Of a stretch of DNA of 64,000 bases, positions 2,834 to 9,869 are shown piece after piece; the stretch's first letter is position 1, and each line of letters starts with the position of its first letter. The translations under genes were made by a program, and so were the position numbers. This DNA comes from Bacteroidales bacterium. Lineage in GTDB: Bacteria > Bacteroidota > Bacteroidia > Bacteroidales > Prolixibacteraceae. Location of the stretch: the NCBI GenBank assembly GCA_012719495.1, contig JAAYAG010000119.1:62001-126000 (forward strand), read 5' to 3'. Under the pieces are notes generated by a model, which ran no database searches, was not told where the DNA came from, and saw only the letters and a list, made by a program, of their open reading frames with translations.

Positions 2834-4792
2834 ATGAATTGGACATTTGGTCATATCGATTTTTCTACTTACCCAGCGTATAATGATCAACCATTGGGAA
2901 TAAAGTATTCAAAAGAAAATACAACATTACGCCTATGGGCTCCTACTGCACAACGGGTAATTTTCCGCACCTATACAAAAGGCGACGGAGGAAAGTTGAT
3001 TGATGTTCTCCAAATGTCGAGAGAAGATGCCGGCGTATGGTTTGTAAAAATTGACGGAGATAACCATGGTCTCTACTACACCATACAATGCCAGATTGAA
3101 GAGAAATGGATGGACGAAATTCCAGATCCGTACGCTTTTGCCGTTGGAGTAAATGGCCGCAGAGGAATGATTTGCGATTTTTCGCGCACAAACCCTACAG
3201 GTTGGGATGCTGATAAAAATATTCTGCCCGAACACTATACCGACATGATTTTGTATGAGTTGCATGTCCGTGATTTCAGTATTGATGAATTTTCGGGAAT
3301 AAAAAATAAAGGGAAATACTTGGCTTTTACAGAACGGGGCACCCGGTCGCCTGAAGGCCTAAAAACCGGAATTGACCATTTGATAGAAATGGGTATTACT
3401 CATGTTCATTTGCTTCCTGTGTTCGATTTTCTTACTGTTGATGAAAACCATTTCAACAGCAACGAATACAATTGGGGCTATGATCCGCTCAATTATAATG
3501 TGCCCGAAGGCTCTTATTCTACTAATCCACACATGGGTGATGTGCGAATCAAAGAGTTCAAACAACTGGTAAAAGCCCTTCACGATGCCAACATCGGAGT
3601 TATTATGGATGTAGTTTATAATCACACAGGACTTATTCATCATTCATATTTTAACCAAACCTTTCCTGGGTATTATTACCGGCAACGCGACAATGGAACG
3701 TTCAGCGATGCAAGTGGATGCGGTACCGAAATTGCATCAGAACGCTCAATGGTGAGAAAGTTTATTGTCGATTCTATTCTTTTCTGGGCCAATGAATACC
3801 ATATCGACGGGTTTCGTTTCGACTTAATGGGTGTTTTCGACATTGAGACCATGAATACTATTCGGCATGAACTTGACCAAATAGATCCGGGCATGGTAAT
3901 GTATGGTGAAGGGTGGACCGGAGGAGAGAGTCCTCTTGATGAAAAGTTTAGGGCTGTAAAAAGTAACGCTCCCCGGCTCAACCGCATTGCGGTGTTCAAC
4001 GATGATTTTCGCGACGCATTGAAAGGTAACTGGGGAACACCCACGAGCCTCGGTTTTGCCAGTGGGCAAACTCTTAACGAGGAAACAGTGAAGTATGGAA
4101 TTGTTGCTGCTACAAACCATCCGCAGATCATTTATAGTTATGTGGCAACCACAAAATGGGCTTGGTCGTTGGCTCCTTCGCAAAGCATCAATTATGTATC
4201 GTGTCACGATAATTTTACTTTATACGACAAACTGAAATTATCACGACCTGATGCCTCGCTTTTCGATTTGGCACGAATGGCTTGTTTGGCTGGCGGATTA
4301 CTGTTGACTTCGCAAGGGGTGCCATTCTTGCATGCAGGGGTCGAGATGCTCAGAACCAAGCAAGGGAGTGGGAATAGTTATAATCTGGGCGACAATATTA
4401 ATCAGATTGACTGGAGCCGGAAAGCCTTGTTTTCTTATGTCTCTGACTATTTTAAGAGACTAATATCGATACGAAAGAAACATCCTGCTTTTCGGATGAC
4501 ATCAACCGCACAGATTCAACAACATCTGAAGTTTTCGAAGCATTATATGCCCGGTGTTGTCGCGTACGAATTGCTTGATAGTGCCAATGGAGACTCCTGG
4601 AATCATATATTACTGATATTCAACAATAACTCTTCGCCAATTGTTTTCCCGGTAAAGCGGGGACGATGGATTGAAATTGCCAGCGGGCTCGCAGTCGACG
4701 AAGAAGGCCTTGGCTCGCATGTTACAACATCAGCTTTTGTTCCCCCCTTATCGATGTTGTTATGGGTGAAAGACCCAAATTTCATACTCTGA
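2834..4792 (+). CDS. pulA: Type I pullulanase (cytoplasmic debranching enzyme, GH13)
   Basis: A 652-residue protein that hydrolyses alpha-1,6 branch points of glycogen, pullulan or limit dextrins. Order of parts: CBM48-like N-terminal beta domain (about 20-115), GH13 catalytic barrel (about 130-560) and a C-terminal beta domain. The type I pullulanase signature YNWGYDP is at 212-218, followed by NVPEGSYS. Catalytic residues visible are the nucleophile Asp330 in GFRFDLMG, the acid/base Glu359 in YGEGW, and a CHDN motif near 456. There is no signal peptide, so it probably acts on intracellular glycogen or imported dextrins. It stands alone, between the divergent tetR operon and an MFS transporter gene. 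Family assignment is firm; the physiological substrate is inferred. Confidence 0.95.
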   Translation: MNWTFGHIDFSTYPAYNDQPLGIKYSKENTTLRLWAPTAQRVIFRTYTKGDGGKLIDVLQMSREDAGVWFVKIDGDNHGLYYTIQCQIEEKWMDEIPDPYAFAVGVNGRRGMICDFSRTNPTGWDADKNILPEHYTDMILYELHVRDFSIDEFSGIKNKGKYLAFTERGTRSPEGLKTGIDHLIEMGITHVHLLPVFDFLTVDENHFNSNEYNWGYDPLNYNVPEGSYSTNPHMGDVRIKEFKQLVKALHDANIGVIMDVVYNHTGLIHHSYFNQTFPGYYYRQRDNGTFSDASGCGTEIASERSMVRKFIVDSILFWANEYHIDGFRFDLMGVFDIETMNTIRHELDQIDPGMVMYGEGWTGGESPLDEKFRAVKSNAPRLNRIAVFNDDFRDALKGNWGTPTSLGFASGQTLNEETVKYGIVAATNHPQIIYSYVATTKWAWSLAPSQSINYVSCHDNFTLYDKLKLSRPDASLFDLARMACLAGGLLLTSQGVPFLHAGVEMLRTKQGSGNSYNLGDNINQIDWSRKALFSYVSDYFKRLISIRKKHPAFRMTSTAQIQQHLKFSKHYMPGVVAYELLDSANGDSWNHILLIFNNNSSPIVFPVKRGRWIEIASGLAVDEEGLGSHVTTSAFVPPLSMLLWVKDPNFIL

Positions 4793-4902
4793 GTTTCACT
4801 ATTTCCGTGCGATAAAAAAAATAGGAAGAGCTAGCTGTTTTCTCCATTTTTTTTTGAAAGTTTGTGATCATTAAGTTAACCGAAATTTTAAGCCATTAAT
4901 TT

Positions 4903-6306
4903 ATGGACAATATCCGAAAATCGCTCCGCGACTCAAAATCGGCACGCTGGTTTGTACTGGTACTCGTGTCGTTTACCATGATGTGTATGTACTATCTGAC
5001 GGATGCAATGGCTCCGTTACAGCAGAATCTTCAAACCAATTTAAACTGGACAGCAACCGACTATGGTTTGTTTACAAGTGGTTATGGTTGGTTCAATGTA
5101 TTTTTGTTGATGCTGGTTTTTGGTGGGATGATCCTCGACAAACTGGGAACCCGCATTACCGGGATTCTGGCTATTTTCATTATGCTGGTTGGCGCCGGAA
5201 TAAAGTACTGGGCCATTTCAGGTCATTTTTCCGGAATGTACCACCTGAACATCGGTTCATGGCAAGCACTGGGCGATACACCAAAATCGGCGGTAATGGC
5301 TGGTTTGGGTTTCGGTATCTTCGGTGTAGGTTGCGAAATGTTTGGTATCACAGCCAACAAAGCAGTTGTTCGCTGGTTCAAGGGAAAAGAGATGGCCCTG
5401 GCTATCGGCCTAAACACCTCTACCGGAAGAATTGGTACTGCACTGGCCATGTTTACTCCGCTGCCATTATACAACCTTACAAAAAATGTCAGCACACCGG
5501 TGTTGGTTGCCATGCTGCTTCTGGGGCTTGGGTTGCTGGTTTTCTTATTTTTTACAGTTCTCGACCGTAAACTCGATAAAGAAGAAAGTGATGCAGGGGT
5601 TGAAAAGGAAGAAGAATTCAAGTTCTCAGATATTGGCGATATTGCTAAAAACCGCGCGTTCTGGTTCATCGCCATACTTTGTGTGCTGTTCTATTCAGCC
5701 GTATTCCCTTTCATCAAATTTGCTACAAACCTCATCGTTCAGAAATTCTCGGTTACCGATACGTTTGCAGGATATATCCCGGCATTGTTGCCTTTCAGCG
5801 CATTGTTGTTAACCCCACTTTTTGGCGGCATTTCCGATAAAAAAGGAAAAGCAGCATCCATTATGGTCATGGGTTCTATTCTACTTGTCATCGTACACCT
5901 GCTGTTTTCCATACCATCGCTCAATAGTTTCCCCATTGCCATTGGGTTGGTTTTGTTGCTTGGAATTGCTTTTTCGCTGGTTCCTTCAGCCATGTGGCCT
6001 TCGGTGGCCAAAATTATTCCTATCAGCAAGCTGGGCACAGCCTATGCCATGATTTTTTGGGTTCAGAATATCGGATTAATGCTGGTGCCACTACTGATTG
6101 GTTCCGTGCTTGACAAATACTGTATCATTGGAACTGTTTCAAAAATGGTGGATGGAAAAGAGCTGCAACTGACGCAGTATAACTACACCCTGCCAATGCT
6201 GATATTTGCTTTCTTTGGATTTCTGGCCATTGGATTTGCCTATTTATTGAAATTTGAAGATCGCAAAATGGGTTATGGACTTGAAAAACCGAATATTAAA
6301 GAGTAA
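4903..6306 (+). CDS. Major facilitator superfamily transporter
   Basis: A 467-residue inner membrane protein with about twelve hydrophobic segments split by a charged central loop (about 221-248, rich in Glu/Lys) and the MFS loop-2 pattern GGMILDKLGTRITG at about 73-86, repeated in the second half as GGISDKKGKAAS. The first half includes an unusual insert with YWAISGHFSG...LGDTPKSA. It resembles the broad OFA/NNP-like anion transporter branch of MFS, but the substrate cannot be read from the sequence. The gene starts 110 bp after pullulanase and ends in a strong hairpin, so it is probably its own unit or the end of a pullulanase unit. A link with sugar metabolism is only positional. Confidence 0.88.
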   Translation: MDNIRKSLRDSKSARWFVLVLVSFTMMCMYYLTDAMAPLQQNLQTNLNWTATDYGLFTSGYGWFNVFLLMLVFGGMILDKLGTRITGILAIFIMLVGAGIKYWAISGHFSGMYHLNIGSWQALGDTPKSAVMAGLGFGIFGVGCEMFGITANKAVVRWFKGKEMALAIGLNTSTGRIGTALAMFTPLPLYNLTKNVSTPVLVAMLLLGLGLLVFLFFTVLDRKLDKEESDAGVEKEEEFKFSDIGDIAKNRAFWFIAILCVLFYSAVFPFIKFATNLIVQKFSVTDTFAGYIPALLPFSALLLTPLFGGISDKKGKAASIMVMGSILLVIVHLLFSIPSLNSFPIAIGLVLLLGIAFSLVPSAMWPSVAKIIPISKLGTAYAMIFWVQNIGLMLVPLLIGSVLDKYCIIGTVSKMVDGKELQLTQYNYTLPMLIFAFFGFLAIGFAYLLKFEDRKMGYGLEKPNIKE

Positions 6307-6351
6307 TTATCAGAATTAATCGCCAAGAAACCGGTTATTTTCAATATTAAA

Positions 6352-6396
6352 CAATAGGGTTTCAAACTTTTTTTAGAACTGTTTGGAACCCTATTG
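6352..6396 (+). terminator. Hairpin terminator after the MFS gene
   Basis: Arms at 6352-6367 and 6381-6396 pair over 16 bp with one G-U pair around a 13-nt loop. The following tract (GGTATTTTAAAA) is only weakly T-rich, so efficiency is uncertain. Confidence 0.55.
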
Positions 6397-6424
6397 GTAT
6401 TTTAAAAAATGGCTCTACCTTTTG
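6394..6424 (+). promoter_or_regulatory. Putative promoter of the MarR gene
   Basis: TTG (6394-6396), 19 nt, then TACCTTTTG (6416-6424), which matches TAnnTTTG apart from one extra base. It ends 1 nt before the palindrome at 6426, so a bound regulator would cover the transcription start. The upstream box lies inside the terminator hairpin of the preceding gene. Confidence 0.4.
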
Positions 6425-6425
6425 C

Positions 6426-6445
6426 ATAGGTAATATATTACCTAT
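6426..6445. promoter_or_regulatory. MarR operator M1 (20-bp perfect palindrome)
   Basis: The 20 bases from 6426 to 6445 are a perfect palindrome with outer arms ATAGGTAATA and TATTACCTAT. It ends 7 bp before the MarR start codon. A 17-of-20 match recurs at 6901-6920 just before the next gene, which argues for a real binding site of the MarR protein. Confidence 0.75.
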
Positions 6446-6452
6446 TTCTATC

Positions 6453-6887
6453 ATGAAAGAGAAGGAAAATATTTTTGGATTATTACTATTTGTTGCCCAA
6501 CGATGGACTGTCAATGGCGATGCACTCTTAACTCAAAAAGCCGGCATTACTACCAAACAGTGGATGCTACTGGTTATTTTGATTAAGAATTTTAATGACA
6601 AGCAACCAACTATTTCCGAAACAGCAAAAGTTTTTGGTACCTCGAGGCAAAACCTGAAGCAGGTTGCTGAATCTCTTCAAAAGAAAGCATTTATTGACAT
6701 TAAACCCGACGCAAACGATTTTCGCATTCAACGGATTTCACTTACCGGAAAACACGAACATTTTTTTCTAGGCGAAGAAAACGAACAGTGGCAAAAGGAT
6801 TTCATCAACAGCTTGTTTGAAGGTTTTACAGAAGAAGAATTAAAAATGTTCAATGGCTTTATGGATAGGTTGAGCCTAAATTTCTAA
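6453..6887 (+). CDS. MarR-family transcriptional regulator
   Basis: A 144-residue protein with the MarR winged-helix arrangement: an N-terminal helix, a helix-turn-helix around 52-80 (TISETAKVFGTSRQNLKQVAESLQKKAFI) and a wing near 84-95 (DANDFRIQRISLT). Such proteins bind palindromic DNA as dimers and respond to small phenolic or oxidising ligands. The start codon is 7 bp after a perfect 20-bp palindrome, and a related palindrome precedes the next gene, so it is inferred to repress itself and the exported protein downstream. The ligand is unknown. Confidence 0.85.
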   Translation: MKEKENIFGLLLFVAQRWTVNGDALLTQKAGITTKQWMLLVILIKNFNDKQPTISETAKVFGTSRQNLKQVAESLQKKAFIDIKPDANDFRIQRISLTGKHEHFFLGEENEQWQKDFINSLFEGFTEEELKMFNGFMDRLSLNF

Positions 6888-6900
6888 AAATTTTAATCAG

Positions 6901-6920
6901 ATAGGCAATATATTACTCAT
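6901..6920. promoter_or_regulatory. MarR operator M2 (imperfect copy of M1)
   Basis: The bases ATAGGCAATATATTACTCAT match M1 at 17 of 20 positions and end 10 bp before the start of the exported DUF6544-like protein. The placement mirrors that of M1 relative to the MarR start. Confidence 0.65.
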
Positions 6921-6930
6921 TTATAAAGCG

Positions 6931-7755
6931 ATGAAAATAACATTTAAAATTACATTTATTATGGCTCTGGGATTTATAACATCGTGCGCTTCAACGAGGA
7001 GCATTTACAAGAAAGAATTGAGTGAGCGTTTTAAACAACCACTTAAAGAAACCCGTATCATTACAGAAACCGATCTCGCTAAATTACCGGTTCCGGTGGC
7101 CAACTATCTGCGGTATTGCGGTTGGTTGGGAAAAGAAATCCCTCGTAACTTTTACTGCAAGTTTGATGGCCCTTTCTTTGTCAAAAAAGGAAAACCAATG
7201 AAATTCGACATTGAGCAATACAGTTGGCTCGATTCTCCAACCCGTCTTTTCCGGATGAAGAACTGGATGGTAAGTGGTCGCCACCGCATGGATCACCGGG
7301 GTGCATTTATGCTGATTAAAGTGTTCGACCGTTTCAAGGTAGCCGACGCTTCGGGTGCCGAAATGAACAAGGCTGAATTAGTCACCTACCTCAACGACCT
7401 TTGCATTCTTGCTCCGGGTGGACTGATTGAGGCGCCTATCGTATGGGAAACAATTGATAATCTAACAGTGAAAGCAACCATTACTGAATTGGGAAATACT
7501 GTGTCTGCAACAATTTACTTCAACGAAAAAGGGGAATTACTCAATTTCATTAGCACCGACCGCTTTTTTACTTCCGATGGAAAAAATCCGAAAAATTACC
7601 CGTGGTCAACTCCAATGAAAGATTATATCGAGGCAGATGGGTATAAACGCCCGGGTTATGGCGAAGCAATCTGGGACATGCCCGACGGAAAGTTCAACTA
7701 TGCGCAATTCAATTTGAAAGAGGTAAAATACAACCTAGTAAAACCACTGGAATAA
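6931..7755 (+). CDS. Exported lipoprotein of the DUF6544 type
   Basis: A 274-residue protein with a lipoprotein signal (hydrophobic 7-17, then TSC with Cys19). The body has the pattern LPVPVANYLRYCGWLGKEIP, then FDIEQYSWLDSPTRLFRMKNWM and later NDLCILAPGGLIEAPIVWE, which I recognise as resembling DUF6544/DUF6920-type proteins of unknown function; the name is from memory of the motif pattern and not from a search. The gene follows the MarR regulator by 43 bp and has its own MarR-type palindrome, so it is the probable target. It ends in a strong hairpin shared with the convergent DPP III gene. A role in envelope or solvent stress is only a guess. Confidence 0.65.
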   Translation: MKITFKITFIMALGFITSCASTRSIYKKELSERFKQPLKETRIITETDLAKLPVPVANYLRYCGWLGKEIPRNFYCKFDGPFFVKKGKPMKFDIEQYSWLDSPTRLFRMKNWMVSGRHRMDHRGAFMLIKVFDRFKVADASGAEMNKAELVTYLNDLCILAPGGLIEAPIVWETIDNLTVKATITELGNTVSATIYFNEKGELLNFISTDRFFTSDGKNPKNYPWSTPMKDYIEADGYKRPGYGEAIWDMPDGKFNYAQFNLKEVKYNLVKPLE

Positions 7756-7760
7756 AATAA

Positions 7761-7796
7761 AAAGAAGGTTGATTCAAATCTGAGTCAACCTTCTTT
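7761..7796. terminator. Bidirectional terminator between convergent genes
   Basis: Arms 7761-7775 and 7782-7796 pair over 15 bp (one G-U pair) with a 6-nt loop. The minus strand runs into CTTTTTATTTT, so it serves best for the DPP III gene, while the plus strand has only a short T run. Confidence 0.8.
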
Positions 7797-7817
7797 CAAT
7801 TATCTTATTATAAACTA

Positions 7818-9869
7818 CTAGTTATACACTGGCAACCACGAATGTTCTTTTGCGTAACGCATCATCTGTTCGGCATAACCTTCAGTATAGTCGAGGGTAA
7901 TGTTGGAAATTTTACCGTTTGCATCGGTTTCAACGTTGTAAACAGGGTTCACAAAGCCAGAGTATGGGGCAAGGTTCAATTTGGAATACCTTTCAATAAC
8001 TTCGGCATGTAATTCCTGATCAATTTTTACTGCATAATTTTCAACAAGGTTCTTTGCTGCTTCAAAGTCACCTTCTGACTTTACTCGTTGTATCTCAGAC
8101 AAAAGTTCACCAAAGAGGGTCCTTACTCTATTATAATCGTTAATTACAAAGTAGGTTTTCCCTTCTTTCATCTTTTTCTCGATTACATTATTGGCAGTCC
8201 CTTTTTCAAAAACCCATTTCGAGATTAACTGACGGTTGCGCATGTGCGATTGTTCAATGTTGTCGCCAAGTTTAATGCGGGTTAACTGGGTCATTAAGCC
8301 GTTTCTGATGTAGTCATCGTAAGCTGCTTTATACGCTTCAGCATCGGGCAACAAACCCAACTCAACCATTTTTTTGTCGCCCATGTAATAAAGCGCAAAT
8401 AAGTCGGCACGTGCTTCTTCAATTACAGAACCGTATGCTTTAAGTTCGTCGCCGGAAACACCTGGCAACAATTGTCCTGAACCATGTCCTAAGCATTCGT
8501 GCATGTCGGTATGCAAATTATCGGCCTGGAAACCATATATTTTCTCATTTTCAATTTCTTTTTCAGAATAGGCAAATTCTTCCATAAAACCATTTCCTTC
8601 GGCTGCTTTTGAATAAGCATAGGTAATGTTCTCTATGGTTACCGATTTGGAACCATGTTCTTTACGAATCCAATCGGCATTGGGGAGGTTGATACCAATA
8701 GGGGTAGCAGGATAGCAATCGCCACCCAACATTGCTGCGGTAATTACCTTAGCGGTAACACCTTTAACCGTTTCTTTTTTGAAGCGTTTATCCACTGGCG
8801 AATTATCTTCGAACCATTGGGCATTGGCACTAATTATTTCGGTACGTTTTGTCGCTTCAATATTTTTGAAATTGACCACACTTTCCCAGCTCGCTTTTAA
8901 GCCCAGCGGATCGCCATAGGTTTCGATAAAGCCGTTAACAAAATCGATACGTGATTGCTGATCGGCCAACCAAGCAACATTATATTTGTCGAAAGTTTTA
9001 AGGTCGCCTGTTTTATAGTAGTCAATCAGATAGGTAATTACTGTTTTCTGCTGATCATTTTCGGCAACAGTAAGTGCTTTTTCAAGCCAGTATACAATTT
9101 TGTCGATGGCTTCACCATATTTTCCGCCCGATTTCCAAACCTCTTCGGTTAGTTTGCCATCTTTTTTCTCCAAGGTACTATTTAATCCGTACGAGATAGG
9201 CTCTTGGTCGTTAGGGTTTTTCATGGCTGCATAAAACGCTTCGGTTTCAGCTTGTGTAATTCCATCACCATAATAATTGCAGGCCGATGTCGCAATTAAA
9301 TCTTGTCCTTCGGCTTGGTTTACCCGTTTGAAGTCAACATTCATGTCGAAGATTATTGGCTCTATGCGGGCGTTAAAGGTCTCTTTGTTTTCTCCTTCTT
9401 TCAGCGGAAGTTTTTCAGCATCGATTCCGGCCAGCAATTCGGCAAAAAAAGACGCGTTAAACCCTGGATCAATTTTATCAGAAGAGTAATGATGGTGAAT
9501 TCCGTTTGAGAACCAAACCCGTTTTAGGTAAATCTCGAATGCTTTGAAATTTTCGCTGTTTCTGTCGCCTTTATAGTTCTCATAAATAGCTTCCAATGTG
9601 CGCCTTACAGTAAGGTTGTACTTGTAGTTCTGGTCGAAAATAATATCCCGTCCTTCAATGGCAGCTTGTGAAAGATAGTAAATGAGTTCTTTCTGAGGCA
9701 ATGTCAATTCTTCGAAGCCAAGAACCGGGTAGCGCAATATTTTCAGATCGGCAAATTGCTCGATAAAAAATTGAAAACTGGAATCTTTGGGTTCTTCTTT
9801 TGGGGAAGGTGTTTTGCAGCTTGTCATGGCTAATACAGTTACGATGATTAATAACAATGGTGTTCTCAT
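7818..9869 (-). CDS. Dipeptidyl-peptidase III family lipoprotein (M49 metallopeptidase)
   Basis: With the start at 9869 the protein has 683 residues and a lipoprotein signal ending AMTSC (Cys18), so it is probably envelope-anchored. The zinc motif HECLGH is at about 457-462 and the third-ligand motif EEARAD at about 484-489, which identify the M49 family that removes dipeptides from peptide N termini. The Cys in place of the usual Leu in HELLGH is known from Bacteroidetes members. The longer frame to 9929 was rejected because that start falls inside the promoter and would bury the signal peptide. A clean promoter lies at 9906-9937. The gene is alone on its strand, convergent with the MarR pair. 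Confidence 0.92.
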   Translation of the reverse strand: MRTPLLLIIVTVLAMTSCKTPSPKEEPKDSSFQFFIEQFADLKILRYPVLGFEELTLPQKELIYYLSQAAIEGRDIIFDQNYKYNLTVRRTLEAIYENYKGDRNSENFKAFEIYLKRVWFSNGIHHHYSSDKIDPGFNASFFAELLAGIDAEKLPLKEGENKETFNARIEPIIFDMNVDFKRVNQAEGQDLIATSACNYYGDGITQAETEAFYAAMKNPNDQEPISYGLNSTLEKKDGKLTEEVWKSGGKYGEAIDKIVYWLEKALTVAENDQQKTVITYLIDYYKTGDLKTFDKYNVAWLADQQSRIDFVNGFIETYGDPLGLKASWESVVNFKNIEATKRTEIISANAQWFEDNSPVDKRFKKETVKGVTAKVITAAMLGGDCYPATPIGINLPNADWIRKEHGSKSVTIENITYAYSKAAEGNGFMEEFAYSEKEIENEKIYGFQADNLHTDMHECLGHGSGQLLPGVSGDELKAYGSVIEEARADLFALYYMGDKKMVELGLLPDAEAYKAAYDDYIRNGLMTQLTRIKLGDNIEQSHMRNRQLISKWVFEKGTANNVIEKKMKEGKTYFVINDYNRVRTLFGELLSEIQRVKSEGDFEAAKNLVENYAVKIDQELHAEVIERYSKLNLAPYSGFVNPVYNVETDANGKISNITLDYTEGYAEQMMRYAKEHSWLPVYN

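Follow-up and report, generated by a model that had tools for sequence, protein, structure and literature searches.

The closest described systems to the locus analysed here are the autoregulated repressor operons of the MarR, SlyA and MepR type, in which a MarR-family regulator of the winged-helix fold has a palindromic site at its own promoter and the target gene lies directly 3′. The window (the whole 64-kb stretch of DNA that was analysed) shares these features, with a predicted winged-helix MarR that appears to have a palindromic site at its own promoter and a DUF6544 gene as its putative target (Table 1). We consider it probable that the two genes constitute an autorepressed marR-DUF6544 operon released by a ligand, in which the second site, O2, is a weaker auxiliary operator and DUF6544 is a lipoprotein of LolA/LolB type. 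The sites, their conservation and the gene order were read from the sequence, the folds and the promoter are predicted, and we infer repression (from the geometry of the sites), the ligand, the role of O2 and the function of DUF6544.

Table 1. Features of the marR-DUF6544 locus, in window coordinates
Feature	Position	Strand	Description and basis
Likely Bacteroidota-type promoter	6393..6424	+	ATTG (6393-6396), 19 nt, TACCTTTTG (6416-6424); by eye
O1 (site 1)	6426..6445	.	Perfect 20-bp palindrome ATAGGTAATATATTACCTAT, its own reverse complement; putative primary MarR operator
MarR-family regulator, 144 aa	6453..6887	+	MarR_2 profile and predicted structure
O2 (site 2)	6901..6920	.	ATAGGCAATATATTACTCAT, matching O1 at 17/20 positions, between marR and DUF6544; candidate auxiliary operator
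DUF6544 protein, 274 aa	6931..7755	+	Probable lipoprotein, predicted LolA/LolB-type fold; PF20181, E value 2.4e-62
Terminator-like hairpin (16 pairs) at the end of the operon	7761..7796	+	Terminator scan of 6200-7850

Putative operator sites and likely promoter in the window

The initial annotation had described a perfect 20-bp palindrome ahead of the MarR gene and a 17-of-20 copy ahead of the next gene. Both were confirmed, with 7 bp between O1 and the marR ATG (6453) and 10 bp between O2 and the ATG at 6931; O2 has three mismatches to O1, and one of its arms is altered (GCAA in place of GTAA). O1 is one of two perfect 20-bp palindromes in the 64-kb window, the other (at 1978) being unrelated. 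When the window was scored with a position matrix built from 29 sites of other genomes without those of the window (one of them, from L081, is identical to O1), O1 ranked first (31.7 bits) and O2 second (21.3 bits), and the third-best score in the 64 kb was 9.0.

A genome-wide motif scan, proposed in the initial annotation, covered 4,189,260 bases on 151 contigs of the same genome and found places within three mismatches of O1 only at O1 and O2. The control, O1 with its letters read backwards, also gave two places in this 4.19-Mb genome, so it is the location of the sites, and not their number, that is unusual. When 20 Mb of sequence was generated from a first-order Markov model of the window, it held no 20-mer within three mismatches and none reaching the matrix score of O2; this model is kinder than real genomes, as the backward control shows. 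O1 bears the marks of a MarR operator. A wider regulon in this genome was considered and rejected, there being no third place within three mismatches, a threshold that more diverged sites would escape.

The second perfect palindrome of the window, ATTTAATAGATCTATTAAAT (1978-1997), lies between a TetR-type gene (2013-2633, - strand) and the gene that follows it (659-1948, - strand), which by eye encodes an outer-membrane efflux protein. An 18/20 copy of the palindrome is found at 2659-2678, upstream of the TetR gene at a distance of 25 bp; shuffled sequences would be expected to give 0.00 matches. One window holds two regulator operons, MarR and TetR, in each of which a site precedes both of two genes.

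The promoter consensus of Bacteroidota is TTTG/TAnnTTTG. An exact TAnnTTTG box ends 5-9 nt 5′ of the operator core in 5/5 Bacteroidota orthologues; the window box, TACCTTTTG, is one base off TAnnTTTG, was unflagged by the script and was read by eye. A MarR dimer bound to O1, just 3′ of this -7 box, would cover the transcription start and would thereby block both the marR promoter and the co-transcribed DUF6544 gene, and a small ligand would release the dimer from O1. Activation of the operon by MarR, instead of repression, seems very improbable: the additional site that three orthologues have 56-58 bp 5′ of the first one would suit an activator, but the conserved site coincides with the -10 box in Bacillota and immediately follows the -7 box in Bacteroidota, positions at which bound MarR should obstruct polymerase. 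We give almost no credence to the idea that the palindromes are RNA hairpins in the leader and the gap rather than protein-binding DNA. O1 folds at -7.4 kcal/mol (z -1.63), a value at least equalled by 16 of 200 shuffles, but the fold of O2 is poorer than that of most shuffles (z +1.0, with 173/200 doing at least as well), many Bacillota sites contain the -10 box and so would not be part of an RNA made from that promoter, and the sites accompany the MarR gene and not DUF6544.

In the autorepressed operon that we favour, marR and DUF6544 are expected to share a single transcript, since the two genes overlap by 4 bp in 3/5 orthologues and have spacings of 4 and 9 bp in the other two. In the window they are separated by a gap of 43 bp that contains no terminator-like site. 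The scan of 6200-7850 returned two such sites against 1.4 expected from shuffles, namely the hairpin that closes the operon (Table 1) and one of six pairs inside marR (6558-6572). A link to the upstream pullulanase gene was rejected, as this gene stands ahead of marR and DUF6544 in G056 and the window but does not precede them in the other four orthologues.

The initial annotation had offered internal promoter control as one role for the second site. That O2 controls an internal promoter driving DUF6544 separately now appears improbable: O2 does lie just 5′ of a start codon, as O1 does for marR, and the gap is 43 bp here versus the overlap or 4-9 bp of the orthologues, but no TAnnTTTG box was seen by eye where O1 and the orthologue sites have it, and there is no sigma-70-type match in the gap. 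O2, if it has a role, would add to the repression of DUF6544, either as a roadblock to elongating polymerase or by holding a dimer near O1. An origin of O2 from a duplicated marR leader was rejected, its flanks matching at 7/30 (left) and 10/25 (right) positions, near background.

Conservation in Bacteroidota

MarR of the window type is rare in Bacteroidota. Among samples of relatives drawn from larger groups, near relatives gave MarR matches at E 1e-3 in 8/199 (five strong, window included), the family sample in 8/140 (the same five strong) and the order sample in 32/393 (two strong, the window and G499); in the phylum sample, searched at E 1e-12, the one match among 395 was the window itself. 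Four further genomes of the family encode MarR orthologues of 61-71 % identity, each followed by DUF6544 at 56-58 %, and a fifth orthologue (G499), from another family of the order, keeps the gene order, giving MarR directly followed by DUF6544 in 5/5 Bacteroidota orthologues. In G499 the operon seems to have a third gene (L145, 2764-3429), from an exported-protein family that neighbours DUF6544 in seven loci.

The core GTAAYATRTTAC precedes marR in 5/5 Bacteroidota orthologues. Their first sites differ from the O1 20-mer at two positions in G024, three in G078 and G003, and four in G056 and G499, and the last two are for this reason missed by a genome search limited to three mismatches. The further site 56-58 bp 5′ of the first belongs to G003 (where it has five mismatches), G024 and G078; in G499 a second site lies 167 bp 5′ of the first, and in G056 there is none, nothing else exceeding 3.4 bits in its 8.3-kb stretch. 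A site between marR and DUF6544, at the position of O2, is present in 0/5. As second sites vary in place among the orthologues, O2, 475 bp 3′ of O1, would be one of several placements. Loss of the palindromes from orthologous loci, which the initial annotation had named as evidence against its proposal, is thus found at the position of site 2 but not at site 1. Its claim that the palindromes tie DUF6544 to the regulator stands through site 1 and the conserved operon, whose gene pair recurs in Bacillota, and not through site 2. Judged by sequence, DUF6544 is securely linked to this MarR.

O2 itself is a real match to the putative operator but peculiar to this genome, the sole member of its genus among the relatives listed, and it may either act as an auxiliary operator or have no role. 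The second case, in which O1 is functional, O2 is decaying or fortuitous and DUF6544 is controlled from O1 alone, is possible, though we think it unlikely. It agrees with the absence of the position from all five orthologues and with the altered arm, but a match in exactly this gap would be a rare accident (about 1e-5 for a chance match inside one named 43-bp gap, estimated from two background places per 4.19 Mb), and the matrix score of O2 is in the range of orthologue first sites (22.1 bits in G056, 23.8 bits in G003). An auxiliary operator is the reading that we prefer.

The putative operator, its MarR and their neighbours in Bacillota

A single-sequence scan of genome contigs confirmed no relative, and a DUF6544 profile scan of genome contigs provided 80 loci (80 of 238 kept). 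A related MarR lies directly 5′ of DUF6544 in Anaerocolumna aminovalerica DSM 1283 (L118), a Halothermothrix MAG (L081), Desulfosporosinus (L088) and a Peptococcaceae genome (L101); in Anaerosolibacter (L068), a flavodoxin gene and two MarR genes of this kind lie a few genes 5′ of DUF6544. Tandem sites 20-22 bp apart precede MarR in each of these loci (in L068, the first of its two MarRs), and one of the pair in L081 is the identical 20-mer to O1. The putative operator is nearly the same in two distant phyla, Bacteroidota and Bacillota. Of 19 Bacillota upstream regions, 11 have a TTGAC(N) box at a distance of 17 nt from the TATATT of the core; the 19 comprise the five tandem-site loci (5/5 with the box) and 14 regions from the 30 MarR loci described below, chosen because the locus held a site (6/14).

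Variants of the site were also noted. The second MarR of L068 is preceded by ATATGCAATATATTGCTAAA (2243-2262), whose GCAA arms resemble the altered arm of O2 and may reflect a related specificity. Desulfosporosinus has another MarR of the family, with a tandem pair of variant sites spaced by 21 bp (L218, G530:C7, 1858-1898).

In the class to which the genome of L118 belongs, 36/341 genomes carry the MarR at E 1e-9, and 30 Bacillota MarR loci were taken from this search, with L118's own locus included as L188. Genes up to 1.8 kb 3′ of MarR matched the flavodoxin profile in 14 loci, FMN_bind in 8 and DUF6544 in 5, any of these in 23/30 and none of the three in 7/30; the partner profiles are home-made, some of the flavodoxin matches are weak and Pfam confirmation is on examples. 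A site was found in 18/30 loci at up to four mismatches and in 13/30 at up to three, leaving 12/30 without one at the four-mismatch limit. Nearly all of the sites at up to four mismatches (26/28) fall 0-150 bp before the MarR match; in L191 a site lies within the gene cluster, between two MarR genes. In L118, DUF6544, FMN_bind-type and flavodoxin-type genes are consecutive (3503-5793), 3′ of MarR and the tandem sites. The same three types are also consecutive in L099 (3953-5869), with no MarR match or site in the stretch examined.

The site goes with the MarR rather than with DUF6544. Among 94 loci from the DUF6544 searches (about 0.73 Mb, two duplicates skipped), a site of at least 15 bits occurs in 9/9 with this MarR nearby and 0/85 without it; the first count is partly circular because those loci supplied matrix sites, and the second is not. 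Across 11 whole genomes, 24 places lay within three mismatches versus 15 for the backward control, and by our own count 18/24 adjoin a MarR of the window MarR's family; in G056 and G499, at three mismatches, only the backward control matched.

Most DUF6544 genes are not beside this MarR, which is found within two genes and on the same strand in 9/93 loci (after removal of six stretches that were the same contigs, with other redundancy left in). The other commonest same-strand neighbours within two genes in these 93 loci are a nitroreductase-family protein (8), a 4Fe-4S protein with a weak flavodoxin match that we take to be EFR1-like (8), two small exported families (7 and 7; one with a sub-cut-off match to an outer-membrane barrel, the other without a Pfam match), a cyclic-nucleotide-binding-domain protein (6) and Flavodoxin_5 (6). 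A flavodoxin/4Fe-4S-type gene lies directly 3′ of DUF6544, without this MarR, in L048, L053, L057, L086, L093, L106, L109 and L123, and in several of these eight, genes for a small exported protein and a regulator that binds cyclic nucleotides lie 5′ of the pair.

Predicted functions and known systems

The window MarR scores just under the Pfam cut-off of 27 for MarR_2 (25.2 bits, E value 1.8e-5), and its orthologue in G499 (L145) is over it (39.9 bits). The AlphaFold model of a single chain (pLDDT 90.6) has a winged helix-turn-helix with flanking helices that would form the dimer. Its top Foldseek matches are MarR-family chains (E value about 1e-6, TM 0.6-0.8), and the best solved structure in a search with the MarR profile is 3nqo, a MarR-family regulator of C. 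difficile (E value 3.7e-11); the protein also matches phrog_11961 of PHROGs, with no function given there. Within the recognition helix, QNxK is kept in 11/11 aligned MarRs and the next Q in 10/11. By analogy with its family, the regulator is presumably ligand-responsive. Its sequence contains zero cysteines, which makes cysteine oxidation unlikely as the means of release, and cysteine-based sensing was rejected on this ground.

The DUF6544 protein matches PF20181 with 210.5 bits (cut-off 25), as do all 51 aligned sequences of the family (51/51). ITSC at residues 16-19 was read by eye as a lipobox, suggesting that the window protein is probably a lipoprotein; the Bacillota forms examined have an N-terminal hydrophobic stretch rather than a lipobox. 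Structure prediction, which the initial annotation had suggested for the exported protein, returned a confident model (mean pLDDT 93.7, 51 sequences) in which DUF6544 is predicted to be a LolA/LolB-type half-barrel of antiparallel strands closed by helices. In VIA-align, members of the LolA/LolB superfamily matched the model at Z 11.4-12.1 (160-193 residues aligned, rmsd 3.8-4.7), including the LolA-like 3bk5 (12.1) and 3buu (11.6), LolB 8cm1 (11.8) and P. gingivalis LolB 9tpm (11.8), with LolB 1iwm also among the matches. The best Foldseek match was P. gingivalis LolA3 (E value 2.4e-6), TM-scores being modest (0.39-0.57 over the five best).

DUF6544 differs from this superfamily in sequence, with identities of 6-10 % in the VIA-align rows, and a 10-row profile found no match to solved chains at E values up to 5. 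It also differs in occurring in Bacillota too and in carrying 22 residues that are invariant across the 51 sequences. Many of these residues are polar, a pattern that points to a specific site and would exceed the apparent need of a plain lipid carrier. With the modelled fold, this probable exported lipoprotein is likely to bind or process a hydrophobic compound in the envelope. The signal may be redox-active or an otherwise toxic lipophilic molecule, because in Bacillota flavodoxin and FMN_bind genes follow MarR relatives that share the operator core; this redox or lipophilic theme is drawn from the neighbours and the fold. As a tentative and rather doubtful extension, the MarR subfamily and its one nearly invariant operator could define, in both phyla, an undescribed envelope redox-detoxification regulon of DUF6544, FMN_bind and Flavodoxin_5. 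DUF6544 would then be an exported enzyme or carrier whose conserved polar site handles the lipophilic redox-active molecule sensed by MarR (e.g. a quinone or tetrapyrrole), and the window strain would have the DUF6544 part only behind its MarR, with an operator added within the operon for tighter control.

In the open-licence PubMed Central literature (5.39 million papers), neither DUF6544 nor DUF6920 gave a hit by name. The part of that literature covered by our searches gave no MarR-regulator paper for the operator core GTAATATATTAC, its longer form or two variants, and no paper on this system for MarR combined with flavodoxin and FMN_bind. With a likely operator, its putative repressor and a fold prediction, DUF6544 becomes a testable problem, and a ligand that releases MarR from GTAAYATRTTAC should point to the substrate of DUF6544 and to the role of the flavodoxin and FMN_bind neighbours in Bacillota.

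Of the named MarR families, BilQ (NCBIfam NF045593, named as a regulator of bilirubin use) shows weak similarity to the window MarR (14.2 bits) and to three of four Bacillota MarR relatives scanned (25-28 bits); its cut-off is 125 bits, no listed NCBIfam MarR cut-off was reached, and assignment to BilQ or another NCBIfam MarR equivalog was rejected. An autoregulating MarR operon is an ordinary, known mechanism, and its link to DUF6544 was not found in the literature searched. Compared with operons of the MarR, SlyA and MepR type, the window operon differs in its target, a DUF6544 gene, and in the extra site inside it.
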